Positions 35,203-39,983 of a DNA stretch of 64,000 nt are shown here, piece by piece (the stretch's first letter is position 1; the number at the start of each line of letters is the position of its first letter). The notes below the pieces were generated by a model. It was not told where the DNA came from, did no database searches, and was given only the letters and a program-made list of their open reading frames with translations. The stretch comes from Actinocatenispora sera (GTDB lineage: Bacteria; Actinomycetota; Actinomycetes; Mycobacteriales; Micromonosporaceae): the NCBI RefSeq assembly GCF_018324685.1, contig NZ_AP023354.1:4464001-4528000 (forward strand), written 5' to 3'. Position numbers and translations under genes: made by a program.

Positions 35203-36618
35203 CTAGCGGGTCGGCGCGGCCAGCGGGAGGCTGATCCGGAAGCGGGTGTCGCCCGGGCGGGAGATGACCTGCAGATCGCCGCCGTGCCGCTTGACCACGA
35301 TCCGCCAGCTGACGTCCAGACCGAGACCGGTGCCCTGGCCGATCGGCTTGGTGGTGAAGAACGGCTCGAAGATCTGCTGCTGCAGCTGCGCCGGGATGCC
35401 CGGCCCGGTGTCGCCGATCTCGACGACCGCCCGGTCGCCCTCCAACCCGGTTCGGATGGTCAGCGTGCCGACGCCGTCCATCGCGTCGACCGCGTTGTCG
35501 ATGATGTTGGTCCACACCTGGTTGAGCTCGGCGGCGTAGGCGGGCACCGGCGGCACCGTCGGGTCGTACTCCTTGACCACCCTGACGTTCTCGCCGAGCT
35601 TGACCGCCATCATCACCAGCGTCGAATCGAGCCCCTCGGTCAGGTCGACGACCCCGTGCGGCGCCCGGTCGAGCTGCGAGTACTGCTTCGCCGAGCCGAC
35701 CAGCGCGGAGATCCGGGAGACCGCCTGCTGGATCTCGTTCATCAGCGTCTCGGTCTCCACCGAGTAGCCCAGCCAGCGCAGCGCCGGTTCCAGGAATTCC
35801 GGCTCGGTACTGGCCGCCAGCAGGTCCAGGTCGTCCACGGTGATGCCGGCCGCGGTCAGCACCGGTGCCATCTCCCAGCCCCGGGCGATCTCGTGGTCGT
35901 CGAGCCAGTCGGTGATGGCGTCCTCGCGGTCGCTGGTCTCCAGCGCGGTCAGCGCCGGCGCCTTCGCGACCCGGGCGACGAACTCCTCCTGGACGCCGGT
36001 GAGGTGCTTGAGCTGCTGGACGTGCAGATCCCCGGAAGCGAGCAGCGACAGCTTGTGCCGCATCCCGGCGACCCGCTCGCGCAGCGCGTCGGTGGCCCGT
36101 ACCGCGGCGGCGGCCGGATTGTTCAGCTCGTGCGTCAGCCCGGCGGTCAGCTTGCCCAGCGCCAGCAGCCGTTCCCGCTGGGTCACCAGCTGCTCGGTGT
36201 TGCGCTTGCCGGCGAACATGCCCTGCAGCAGGTGCACCGCCATCGGGAACCACCGGCCGAACGCGGCGTTGAACTCGTCCGCCGGCAGCGCGTAGAACAC
36301 GCAGTCGGTCACCGCGCGCACGCTGCTGTCGTAGGACTGTTCGATCTGGTCGCCGAAGTAGAACCGCACCGCTCCGCAGTACGACCCGACATGGGCGGTG
36401 CGGTTGAGCTCCACCTCGTCGCCGCGCACGGTGCGAAACAGCGACAGGGTGCCGGAGCGCAGCACGTAGAAGCACCGGGCCGGCTCGCCCTCCCTCAGCA
36501 GCATCTCGCCGGCCGCCACCCGTACCTCGTCGGCGTGTGCGGCGATCCAGTCCGTCTGCTCGTCGCTGAGGTGCTCGAACAGCGCCATCCCGGCCAGCTG
36601 CGACCGATCGATGCTCAT
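35203..36618 (-). CDS. Histidine kinase with an N-terminal cyclic-nucleotide-binding-type domain
   Basis: 471 residues. Residues 15-135 form a cNMP-binding fold (LFEHLSDEQTDWIAAHADEV, GEPARCFYVLRSGTLSLFRT); then comes a HisKA-type helix with His163 (GKLTAGLTHELNNPAAAA) and an ATPase domain (NQVWTNIIDNAVDAMDGVGT, DTGPGIPAQLQQQIFEPFFT, GQGTGLGLDVSWRI). There is no membrane segment, so it senses an internal signal. It follows the receiver-flavoprotein gene, its probable partner. The ATG at 36618 has AAGGAGG inside a hairpin loop that abuts it. Confidence 0.9.
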   Translation of the reverse strand: MSIDRSQLAGMALFEHLSDEQTDWIAAHADEVRVAAGEMLLREGEPARCFYVLRSGTLSLFRTVRGDEVELNRTAHVGSYCGAVRFYFGDQIEQSYDSSVRAVTDCVFYALPADEFNAAFGRWFPMAVHLLQGMFAGKRNTEQLVTQRERLLALGKLTAGLTHELNNPAAAAVRATDALRERVAGMRHKLSLLASGDLHVQQLKHLTGVQEEFVARVAKAPALTALETSDREDAITDWLDDHEIARGWEMAPVLTAAGITVDDLDLLAASTEPEFLEPALRWLGYSVETETLMNEIQQAVSRISALVGSAKQYSQLDRAPHGVVDLTEGLDSTLVMMAVKLGENVRVVKEYDPTVPPVPAYAAELNQVWTNIIDNAVDAMDGVGTLTIRTGLEGDRAVVEIGDTGPGIPAQLQQQIFEPFFTTKPIGQGTGLGLDVSWRIVVKRHGGDLQVISRPGDTRFRISLPLAAPTR

Positions 36619-36698
36619 GAGCGTTCCTCCTTCGTCGGAACGCTCAGGAGGCACCACGATGCGCGATGCCCATGGCTCGCTCGCTGTCGCTTGCTCAT
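36615..36698 (-). CDS. 27-residue leader ORF ahead of the histidine kinase
   Basis: MSKRQRASHGHRASWCLLSV then PTKEERS, preceded by GAGAAAGGA and starting in GCTCATGAGCAAG. Its TGA overlaps the kinase ATG (ATGA), and it reads through the hairpin that holds the kinase ribosome binding site. Translating ribosomes would open that hairpin, so this fits a coupling or attenuation leader. It is not known to me as a conserved family. Confidence 0.5.
   Translation of the reverse strand: MSKRQRASHGHRASWCLLSVPTKEERS
36619..36645 (-). promoter_or_regulatory. Inverted repeat enclosing the kinase ribosome binding site
   Basis: Perfect 9-bp arms GAGCGTTCC and GGAACGCTC (minus strand) around the loop GACGAAGGA; the AAGGAGG lies across the loop and the right arm, and the right arm abuts the ATG at 36618. 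In RNA this would hide the ribosome binding site. A very similar element is at 38625-38651. Confidence 0.65.
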
Positions 36699-36739
36699 GA
36701 GCGGTCCTTTCTCGCCGGCACGCTTTCTCGCCGGCCGGG

Positions 36740-38413
36740 TCACTGGTCCTCCAGGTACCGGTGGACCAGGGTGACGGCCATCGCGCCCTCGCCGACGGCG
36801 GCGGCGACCCGCTTCACCGACTCCGACCGCACGTCGCCGGCGACGAACACGCCCGGCAGGCTCGACTCCAGGTAGTAGGGGTCCCGGTCGAGCGTCCAGC
36901 CGGCCGGGCGCTCCCCGCTGACCAGAAGGTCGGGCCCGGTGCGGACGAAGCCCAGCGGATCGCGTTCGACGACCCCGTCGAGCCAGTCGGTGTGCGGTCG
37001 CGCGCCGATGAACACGAACAGGTGGTTGGACTCCACCTCGTCCACGGCGTCGGTGAGCCGGTCGCGCAGCCGCAGCCGGACGAGGTGGTCGTCGCCGACC
37101 ACCTCGTCGACGATGGTGTTCGGCCGCACCGCGATCGTGTCGATCGCCTCGATCTGCTCGATCAGGTAGTGCGACATCGAGCGCTTCAACGACTCGCCGC
37201 GGACCAGGATCGTCACCGAGCGGGCGTGCCGGGAGAAGAACACCGCCGCCTGGCCGGCCGAGTTGGCGCCGCCCACCACGTACACCGCCTGCCCGGCGCA
37301 GGACGGCGCCTCGGTGTTCGCCGAGCCGTAGTAGACGCCGCGGCCGGTGAGCCGGTCGGACCCGTCCGCGTCGAGCGTGCGGTACGCGACACCGGTGGCG
37401 AGGATGACCGCGTGCGCGGCGACCTCGGTACCGTCGCCGAACCGGACCACCCGGGCCGAGCCGCGGGCCTCCAGCGCCACCACGTCACGGGCGGCGAGCA
37501 CCTCGGTACCGAACTTGACCGCCTGGCGGCGGGCCCGGTCGGTCAGCTGGGAGCCGGAGACGCCGTCCGGGAAGCCGAGGTAGTTCTCGATCCGGGAACT
37601 CTGCCCGGCCTGGCCGCCGGTCGCCTCCCGCTCGACCAGCACGGTACGCAGCCCCTCGGAGGCGCCGTAGACCGCGGCGCCGAGCCCGGCCGGACCCGCG
37701 CCGATCACGATCAGGTCGTAGAAGTCGGCGGACGGTGCGGTGGACAGCCCGACCGCGCCGGCCAGTTCGACCTCGCTCGGGGTGCGCAGCACGCGGCCGT
37801 CCGGGGTGATCACCACCGGGATGTCGTCGGGCGTGGCGCCGGCCGCGGACAGCAGCCGCTGACCCTCCGGCTCGTCGACGCTGAACCACCGGTACGGCAC
37901 GGTGTTGCGGGCCAGGAACTCGCGGGCGGCGAACGAGGGCGCCGACCACCGGTGCCCGACGACCTTCACCTCGTCGACCGGCGACTCACCGGTGGCGCGC
38001 CACATCTCGATCAGCGCGTCGACCACCGGGTACAGCTTCTCCTCGGGCGGGTCCCACGGCTTGAGCAGGTAGTGGTCGACGTCGACCACGTTGATCGCCT
38101 GGATCGCCGCGTCGGTGTCCGCGTACGCGGTGAGCAGCGCCCGGCGCGCCCGGGGAAACAGGTCCATCGCCTGCTCGAGAAAGTCGATGCCGGTCATTTC
38201 CGGCATCCGGTAGTCGGCGAGCATCGCGGCGACCGGCTCGCCGCGCAGCTTGAGCTCCTTCAGCGCGTCGAGCGCGTCCCGGCCGGAATCGGCCCGGACG
38301 ATCCGGAAGTCCTCGCCGTACCGCCGGCGCAGGTCGCGCGCCACCGCCCGGGACACGCCCGGATCGTCGTCCACGGTCAGCAGCACCGGCTTCGCCGCTC
38401 GGCGATCGATCAT
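36740..38413 (-). CDS. Response-regulator receiver fused to a thioredoxin-reductase-like flavoprotein
   Basis: 557 residues. The receiver (about 10-135) has acidic residues 15-17, Asp67 in MLADYRMPEM and Lys in LLKPWDPPEEK. A thioredoxin-like linker region (about 155-215, GHRWSAPSFAAREFLARNTV, IPVVITPDG) leads to the FAD domain (DLIVIGAGPAGLGAAVYG) and NADPH domain (YVVGGANSAGQAAVFFSRHA). The redox CxxC of thioredoxin reductase is replaced (YYGSANTEAPSCAGQ), so it is a related reductase, not a thioredoxin reductase. GGGGAGG is 8 bases before the ATG. It precedes the cNMP-type histidine kinase in one operon; together they look like a two-component redox circuit. Confidence 0.88.
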   Translation of the reverse strand: MIDRRAAKPVLLTVDDDPGVSRAVARDLRRRYGEDFRIVRADSGRDALDALKELKLRGEPVAAMLADYRMPEMTGIDFLEQAMDLFPRARRALLTAYADTDAAIQAINVVDVDHYLLKPWDPPEEKLYPVVDALIEMWRATGESPVDEVKVVGHRWSAPSFAAREFLARNTVPYRWFSVDEPEGQRLLSAAGATPDDIPVVITPDGRVLRTPSEVELAGAVGLSTAPSADFYDLIVIGAGPAGLGAAVYGASEGLRTVLVEREATGGQAGQSSRIENYLGFPDGVSGSQLTDRARRQAVKFGTEVLAARDVVALEARGSARVVRFGDGTEVAAHAVILATGVAYRTLDADGSDRLTGRGVYYGSANTEAPSCAGQAVYVVGGANSAGQAAVFFSRHARSVTILVRGESLKRSMSHYLIEQIEAIDTIAVRPNTIVDEVVGDDHLVRLRLRDRLTDAVDEVESNHLFVFIGARPHTDWLDGVVERDPLGFVRTGPDLLVSGERPAGWTLDRDPYYLESSLPGVFVAGDVRSESVKRVAAAVGEGAMAVTLVHRYLEDQ

Positions 38414-38603
38414 CTGGTGGTCCTCCCCGCCGCCGGCGCGTCCCGCGCCGGTTCGCCACGAGCAACGATACGGCGGTGCGGCGATCGCCGGGCCGGCGTC
38501 GGCCACGGCCCGGACATGACCCCCACCACGGTGGCGCGGCCGGTCTCCGGACGGCGCCGGGCCGTGTCCCCGTCCGTTCCGCCGGTGCTGGTATGAAGGG
38601 CGG

Positions 38604-39983
38604 ATGAACGACGTGGCGCCGCAGGACAGTTCCGATGAAGGAGGAACGGTCCTGAGCACGACCGATTCCGGGCCGATTCCGGCCGCCGCGACCGACGAGG
38701 TGGTGCGGATCTGCCAGGAGCTGTTGCGCATCGACAGCACCAACACCGGCGACAACGACACCAGCGTCGGCGAGCGGGCCGCGGCCGAGTACGGGGCGGC
38801 GCAGCTGGCCGAGGTGGGCATCGACTCGTTCCTGACCGAGAGCGCGCCGGGACGCGCGTCGCTGCTGGCGCGCATCCCGGGCGCCGATGCCTCCCGCCCG
38901 CCGCTGCTCGTGCACGGCCACCTCGACGTGGTGCCGGCCGACCCGTCCGAATGGCGGGTACACCCGTTCTCCGGGGAGGTCCGCGACGGGTACGTGTGGG
39001 GCCGCGGCGCCGTGGACATGAAGGACTTCGACGCGATGGTGCTGGCGCTGGTCCGCCAGTGGCGGCGCACCGGCTGGGTGCCGCCGCGCGACATCGTGCT
39101 GGCGTTCTTCGCCGACGAGGAGGCGGGCTCGACCTACGGCGCGCACCACGTCATCGAGCACCACGCCAGCTGGTTCGAGGGCGTCACCGAGGCGATCGGC
39201 GAGGTCGGCGGCTATTCCGTCTCGGTCTCCGACGACCTGCGGCTCTACCTCATCCAGACCGCCGAGAAGGGTCTCAACTGGATGCGGCTGACCGCCCGCG
39301 GCGCGCCCGGGCACGGCTCGATGGTGCACGACGACAACGCGGTCGCCGCGCTGTGCCGGGCGGTCGCCCGGATCAGCGCGCACGAGTTCCCGGTCGAGCT
39401 GACCCCGACGGTGCGCCGGTTCCTCGACGAGGTGTCCGACGCGTACGGGGTCCCGCTCGATCCGGAGAAGCCCGAGCAGGTGATCGCCACGCTCGGGCCG
39501 ATGGCCCGGGCGATCGGCGCCACCGTGCGCAACACGGCCAACCCGACGATGCTCTCCGCCGGGTACAAGACGAACGTGGTGCCCGGCGAGGCGCACGCCA
39601 CCGTCGACGGCCGGGCACTGCCCGGGCACGAGGACCGTTTCCTGGCCGAGATCCAGCGGCTGGCCGGAGCCGGCGTCGAGATCGCCTACGAGCAGCACCA
39701 GCCGGCGCTGGAGACCGACTTCAACGGGCCGCTGGTGGACGCGATGGCCGAGTCGCTGCGGCATTACGACGCCGGTGCCCGGCCGGTGCCGTACATGATG
39801 TTCGGCGGGACCGACGGCAAGGCGCTGAGCCGGCTGGGCATCCGGCACTTCGGGTTCGCGCCGCTGAAGCTGCCCGCCGACCTGGACTTCACCGGCTTGT
39901 TCCACGGGGTCGACGAGCGGGTACCGGTCGACGCCCTGCGGTTCGGCGTCCGGGTCCTGGAACGCTTCTTCGCCCACTGCTGA
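38604..39983 (+). CDS. M20-family metallo-hydrolase (peptidase/dipeptidase type)
   Basis: 459 residues from the first ATG, or 443 from the CTG at 38652. Metal ligands are seen in VHGHLDVVPADPSEW, GRGAVDMKDFDAMV and FADEEAGSTYGAHH, with a dimerisation domain in the middle (TAEKGLNWMRLTARGAPGHG). M20 enzymes cut peptide or amide bonds of small substrates using zinc. The CTG start is attractive because AAGGAGG is 7 bases before it and the sequence matches the element before the kinase gene; the ATG at 38604 has AAGGG close by. It is divergent from the receiver-flavoprotein gene. Confidence 0.9.
   Translation: MNDVAPQDSSDEGGTVLSTTDSGPIPAAATDEVVRICQELLRIDSTNTGDNDTSVGERAAAEYGAAQLAEVGIDSFLTESAPGRASLLARIPGADASRPPLLVHGHLDVVPADPSEWRVHPFSGEVRDGYVWGRGAVDMKDFDAMVLALVRQWRRTGWVPPRDIVLAFFADEEAGSTYGAHHVIEHHASWFEGVTEAIGEVGGYSVSVSDDLRLYLIQTAEKGLNWMRLTARGAPGHGSMVHDDNAVAALCRAVARISAHEFPVELTPTVRRFLDEVSDAYGVPLDPEKPEQVIATLGPMARAIGATVRNTANPTMLSAGYKTNVVPGEAHATVDGRALPGHEDRFLAEIQRLAGAGVEIAYEQHQPALETDFNGPLVDAMAESLRHYDAGARPVPYMMFGGTDGKALSRLGIRHFGFAPLKLPADLDFTGLFHGVDERVPVDALRFGVRVLERFFAHC
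38625..38651 (+). promoter_or_regulatory. Second copy of the ribosome-binding-site inverted repeat
   Basis: GACAGTTCC and GGAACGGTC (8 of 9 paired) around GATGAAGGA, with AAGGAGG in the loop and right arm, directly followed by CTGAGCA. The stretch GTTCCGATGAAGGAGGAAC differs at one base from the copy at 36619-36645, which is followed by ATGAGCA. Confidence 0.6.

Follow-up and report, generated by a model that had tools for sequence, protein, structure and literature searches.

A dispersed repeat with a leader ORF and a covarying ribosome-site hairpin before a histidine kinase gene of Actinocatenispora sera: a probable MIRU-like translational-coupling element

Introduction

The window analysed here is a stretch of 64,000 nucleotides from Actinocatenispora sera (contig NZ_AP023354.1, positions 4,464,001 to 4,528,000), a genus placed in Micromonosporaceae (NCBI). 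On its minus strand, a gene for a 471-aa histidine kinase with a cyclic-nucleotide-binding domain (35203–36618; Pfam cNMP_binding and HATPase_c) follows a gene for a 560-aa protein in which a response-regulator receiver is fused to a thioredoxin-reductase-like oxidoreductase (36740–38422; Pfam Response_reg and Pyr_redox_2; the TRX_reduct model scores below its cut-off on this gene). The gap between them holds a short ORF that ends on the kinase start codon and a hairpin that takes in the kinase ribosome-binding site. Does this leader belong to the kinase and tune its level, as a sequence-only reading had proposed, or does it have a more general origin and role?

Leader ORF and hairpin at the kinase start codon

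The leader ORF (36615–36698, minus strand) comprises 27 codons and a stop and encodes MSKRQRASHGHRASWCLLSVPTKEERS. Its ATG is at 36698–36696, its own ribosome-binding site, AAAGGA, is at 36705–36710 (minus strand), and its TGA (36617–36615) shares a 4-nt ATGA overlap with the kinase ATG (36618–36616), just as the sequence-only reading had it. The reductase stop is overlapped by a GTG at 36743 (GTGA), which is in frame with this leader, so the whole reductase–kinase gap can be one ORF of 42 codons (36615–36743, minus strand), running from the reductase stop to the kinase start (ATGA).

The kinase Shine-Dalgarno sequence AAGGAGG (36626–36632, minus strand) lies in the loop and right arm of an inverted repeat, which had been described as a perfect 9-bp stem touching the kinase ATG. 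The coordinates of that stem are right: on the minus strand, the left arm GAGCGTTCC occupies 36645–36637, the loop GACGAAGGA 36636–36628, and the right arm GGAACGCTC 36627–36619, adjoining the ATG. The stem is longer than was described: it has an unbroken run of 10 pairs, and 13 paired positions out of 14 when 36650–36637 is set against 36627–36614. The full hairpin (36614–36650, minus strand) thus has a 14-position stem with one mismatch and a 9-nt loop. Because the stem reaches 36614, the kinase start codon is also paired. In RNA folding, the leader region is steadier than shuffled sequences (z −3.4).

A dispersed repeat

The 80-nt segment that starts with the leader ATG and ends at the base just 5′ of the kinase ATG (36619–36698, minus strand) is one copy of a dispersed repeat. 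Its core, TTCCGACGAAGGAGG, has 20 exact matches in the 7.04-Mb genome and 40 when one mismatch is allowed; the reversed control pattern has none. A covariance model (R1) matches the kinase locus at 36607–36706 with 107.5 bits (E 2e-26 genome-wide, E 2.1e-28 within the window). It finds 76 copies in this genome (G000) at E ≤ 0.1, and 75, 24, and 74 copies in the genomes G001, G002, and G003, respectively, at E ≤ 0.001; three Actinocatenispora species have approximately 60–75 copies per genome. The consensus of the element is ATGAGCGAGCGTCAGCGAGCGAATCATGGGCATCGCGCGTCGTGCCTCATCGGCGTTCCGACGAAGGAGGAACGGCG, followed by the ATGAGC of the target gene. The copies examined lie on the same strand as the next gene and directly 5′ of it. 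The element is approximately 65–104 nt long (65, 68, 71, 74, 77, 80, or 104 nt, usually 77 or 80), and some copies form tandem arrays. One array (G000:C1:4021736-4022299; L041–L046 and L160–L163), with at least seven units of 78 bp before the gene of a hexapeptide-repeat protein, is a candidate variable-number marker. At L301 (genome G056), the tandem copies are one ORF of repeated 27-aa units (RSERSERLMGAATSVVV...), as if arrays were becoming protein repeats. The window contains a second, degenerate copy before an M20 peptidase gene (38585–38663, plus strand; R1 34.9 bits, E 2.7e-8). It has CTGAGC at the start-codon position, and its leader is in frame into the peptidase ORF and may now be the N-terminus of the peptidase.

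A second model (R2) was built on distant copies. At E ≤ 1e-4, its matches are present in 44 of 61 sampled genomes of Micromonosporaceae, the family of some genomes being inferred, and in 9 of 40 other sampled genomes of the order. Several genomes have at least 40 R2 copies each, and these per-genome counts are lower bounds. In a phylum-wide sample, 8 of 246 genomes match, and the four of these outside the order match weakly. The 5′ half of the element (ATGAGCGAGCG..AGCGAGCGAATCATGGGC) is conserved across genera. A sub-family (L178, L195, L197, and L198 in G019, G021, and G026) has an extra small inverted repeat 3′ of the leader start (AGC-TT-GCT, GGC-TT-GCC, or CGC-TT-GCG) that apparently covaries too. 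Literature searches gave no description of the element in Micromonosporaceae, and one representative copy had no plasmid or phage matches.

The genes that follow the element have no common theme: they include ABC transporters, adk, rpsQ, ilvN, narH, LacI-type regulators, and chorismate mutase. Copies precede the core genes ilvN (L210, with the G003 ortholog in L268), adk (L202), and rpsQ (L217) in G000, and the copy before ilvN is conserved between species. The sequence-only reading had tied the leader to the kinase. The geometry that it described stands; the feature is a mobile repeat and is not specific to the kinase.

Insertion at start codons

Orthologous empty sites in G003 and G002 place the insertions immediately 5′ of [AG]TGA starts. 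Before a gene for a 190-aa protein (MSVATLPARPDSPP...), the empty site of G003 reads ...ggaagggactcgca/ATGAGCGTTGCC, and at the slash itself G000 and G001 have an insert of 68 nt or of 80-nt units in tandem. An ABC permease gene is preceded by the element or a diverged form in G000 and G001 and by none in G003; in G002 the upstream stop/start overlap is uninterrupted (GC-ATGA-GCC). For two G001 insertions (L234/L337 and L226/L334), the empty sites of G003 are at GTGA starts. At these filled sites, the old start context and its ribosome-binding site now precede the leader. Some of the presence/absence differences could be deletions. When the contexts of the two ATGs were compared, there was no clear target-site duplication beyond DTGA. 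A long duplication was rejected, as the contexts are slightly more alike than by chance (4.43 vs 3.66 of 9) in G000 only and not in G001 or G003.

Covariation of the hairpin

The stem shows strong covariation, suggesting that its pairing is under selection while the arms differ between copies. In an alignment of 18 copies, 90% of stem cells pair, with 23 double-sided changes compared to 8.7 in shuffled alignments; one stem position is C-G in nine copies and G-C in the other nine. Among 105 distinct copies there are 131 double-sided changes compared to 43, a result that carries less weight because the alignment was fitted to the model. Nineteen copies, 18 from other genera of the family and one from another family of the order, were aligned independently with MAFFT; here 88% of cells pair, there are 32 double-sided changes compared to 8.2 (0 of 500 shuffles), and 10 of the 14 pairs covary. 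G-U cells exceed A-C cells by 81:26 and 14:4 in two copy sets, and by approximately 43:15 in the first set without the start-codon columns (counted from the table), which is the pairing expected for RNA. In five of ten copies with a GTG start pairing here, the opposite arm has the compensating C.

Conservation of the leader frame

In 83 of 90 distinct Actinocatenispora copies the leader stays in frame and its TGA overlaps the gene start (ATGA), and 37 of 42 matches from other genomes keep the overlap; as the copies are related by descent, these counts are not independent events. The overlap is not a strict requirement, being broken in seven of the 90 copies. Copy lengths differ mostly by multiples of three, and 12 of 19 copies of unusual length are in register (p 0.007). 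Of 76 called upstream genes, 32 extend over the leader start. The peptide is not kept. Codon positions 1/2/3 of the leader body have changed about equally often (103/78/91 and 70/55/73), and many leaders of other genera read MSERSERIMG... in a different frame. Since the frame is kept while the peptide varies, the leader ORF seems to be retained as a track for ribosomes rather than as a source of a peptide.

These counts also bear on the proposal that the leader tunes the kinase to amino-acid status, which is not supported. Such leader-peptide attenuation, in which the speed of translation at particular leader codons would sense amino acids or ribosome stress and set the kinase level, has in its favor the resemblance of a leader ORF and ribosome-site hairpin to the general layout of translational attenuators, and yet it is very improbable, because there is no conserved run of regulatory codons, the equal changes over codon positions speak against amino-acid sensing, other genera have another frame and peptide, and the same leader stands before unrelated genes.

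The reductase–kinase gap in related genomes

Many actinobacteria, and genomes beyond them, conserve the pair of receiver–thioredoxin reductase and cNMP-type kinase (35203–38422), in most cases with the stop of the first gene overlapping the start of the second. Among 53 kinase loci analysed, most of them from other genera, 34 have the kinase start directly on the reductase stop (−4/−1). In all four Actinocatenispora species, an unbroken chain of −4-overlapping ORFs of differing lengths leads from reductase to kinase, even where the repeat has decayed: GTGA-42 codons-ATGA in G000, GTGA-35-ATGA in G001, GTGA-30-ATGA in G003, and GTGA-20-ATGA-26-ATGA in G002. Absence of the ORF and hairpin from close relatives, which would have counted against the coupling geometry, was not observed. 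G001 has both, with compensatory changes in the arms; in G003 the leader sequence is past recognition, and a 30-codon overlapping ORF is in its place. These unbroken chains are the clearest sign that ribosome hand-over from reductase to kinase is what has been conserved. In two decayed G003 leaders (at the kinase and L213 loci), the ORF is kept and the hairpin is partly or wholly gone, so the hairpin may count for less than the overlap.

Discussion

We read the kinase leader as a copy of a mobile, MIRU-like element for translational coupling whose ribosome-site hairpin covaries, and we give this reading a probability of roughly 80%. It draws on the repeat family, the orientation, overlap, frame conservation, stem covariation, and orthologous empty sites documented above. 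The element inserts immediately 5′ of [AG]TGA starts, often where a start overlaps the stop of the preceding gene, and brings a leader ORF whose stop falls on the target start (ATGA), together with a hairpin containing a new ribosome-binding site and the start codon. At the kinase locus, ribosomes would come from the reductase gene or initiate at the old ribosome-binding site before the leader. Translating the leader would take them through the hairpin, which they would open, to the UGA; after stopping there they would initiate again at the kinase AUG. Because gene-to-gene translation continues, the insertion would be tolerated. Translational coupling of leader and kinase, which the sequence-only reading had seen in the geometry of a single locus, is strongly supported at the level of sequence by the overlap and frame counts, the compensatory stem changes, and the ORF chains of the four species.

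The closest known kind of element is the mycobacterial interspersed repetitive unit (MIRU; Supply et al. 1997, as described in PMC12548453). MIRUs are 46–101 bp in size (PMC3914561). They are scattered, partly tandem, and apparently mobile; they insert at start codons, and the ORF inside them is coupled to the target gene at −4 spacing, so that this gene would stay expressed (PMC12548453). The Actinocatenispora element is similar in its unit size, in its tens of dispersed and partly tandem copies, in the −4 spacing of its leader ORF (a likeness of geometry only), and in its insertion at [AG]TGA sites compared to the DTGA-type starts of MIRUs. It differs in where it was found, in Actinocatenispora and related genera rather than in mycobacteria. 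As to homology, R2 has no significant match in the single Mycobacterium MAG that was scanned, and some mycobacteria may lack MIRUs. The element also differs in having a covarying hairpin that encloses the new ribosome site together with the start codon, a conserved addition for which PMC12548453 and PMC3914561 describe no counterpart. The element is MIRU-like by architecture, likened through published descriptions rather than sequence, and may be related to MIRUs. The 1997 description by Supply et al. reportedly found strong dyad symmetry to be absent from MIRUs; the Actinocatenispora elements do have a covarying stem.

Other known systems share single features with the element. In the bicistronic design, ribosomes are carried through inhibitory structure by a short translated leader, within which lies the ribosome site for the second gene (PMC12548453). 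The stop of this synthetic leader cistron likewise overlaps the start codon of the gene to be expressed, but the design is engineered and has no mobile genomic repeat or conserved start-codon hairpin. In phage-type coupling by RNA unfolding, as for f1 genes VII and IX, the downstream start is blocked by a hairpin until ribosomes from upstream open it (PMC12548453). That case is a single locus with full genes, whereas Actinocatenispora has a repeated leader cassette. REP and BIME sequences are also short dispersed repeats with dyad symmetry. REPs, however, are extragenic and are not start-codon fusions with an ORF.

A different casting of the same observations is possible, and we hold it tentatively. 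The repeat would be a family-wide element that inserts ready-made cistrons at operon junctions, capturing the host ribosome-binding site for its mini-gene and locking the host start in a hairpin opened only by its own translation. The host gene would become dependent on the element, and selection would repair the hairpin by compensatory change and keep only the frame. Such elements would not share descent with MIRUs and would be a class of their own, as translational parasites or adaptors.

It is improbable that the leader-hairpin is a cis-regulatory RNA through which a shared protein, small RNA, or metabolite tunes dozens of genes, the repeat having spread because this regulation is useful. 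The 5′ half is conserved across genera beyond the needs of coupling alone, and the hairpin pairing is maintained, which speaks for a regulon; the former could equally reflect recent common ancestry. The missing theme among target genes argues against a dedicated regulon, and in G003 two leaders, at the kinase gene and at L213, have decayed in sequence but retain the overlapping ORF. Rfam 15 gave no match above the gathering score in 18 loci and none relevant in the window region; the riboregulator sX8 was rejected as its match is far below its cut-off.

Selection on the inverted repeat as DNA, for example as a single-stranded hairpin for a REP-type Y1 transposase with coupling as a by-product, is very improbable. 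The element is mobile and has a stem, and REP elements of other bacteria move via hairpins recognized by Y1 transposases. Y1_Tnp (PF01797), however, is absent from G003, despite its 74 copies, and from G002, G009, and G018. Its presence does not track copy number, so we rejected Y1/REP mobilization, and no mobilizing enzyme was found. Moreover, the stem takes in the target start codon, G-U exceeds A-C, and frame conservation would be left unexplained.

For gene finding, leaders such as MSERSERIMG... or MSERQRANHG... are insertion-derived mini-ORFs that can shift annotated starts, and the tandem arrays could become strain-typing markers. The MIRU idea of a repeat that survives by coupling to the gene on which it lands has been little studied, and the present element extends it to another actinobacterial family. 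In non-pathogenic strains, with copies numbering up to tens in a genome, empty sites that are clean, a covarying structure, and conservation of the frame only, the hypothesis of 1997 becomes directly testable.
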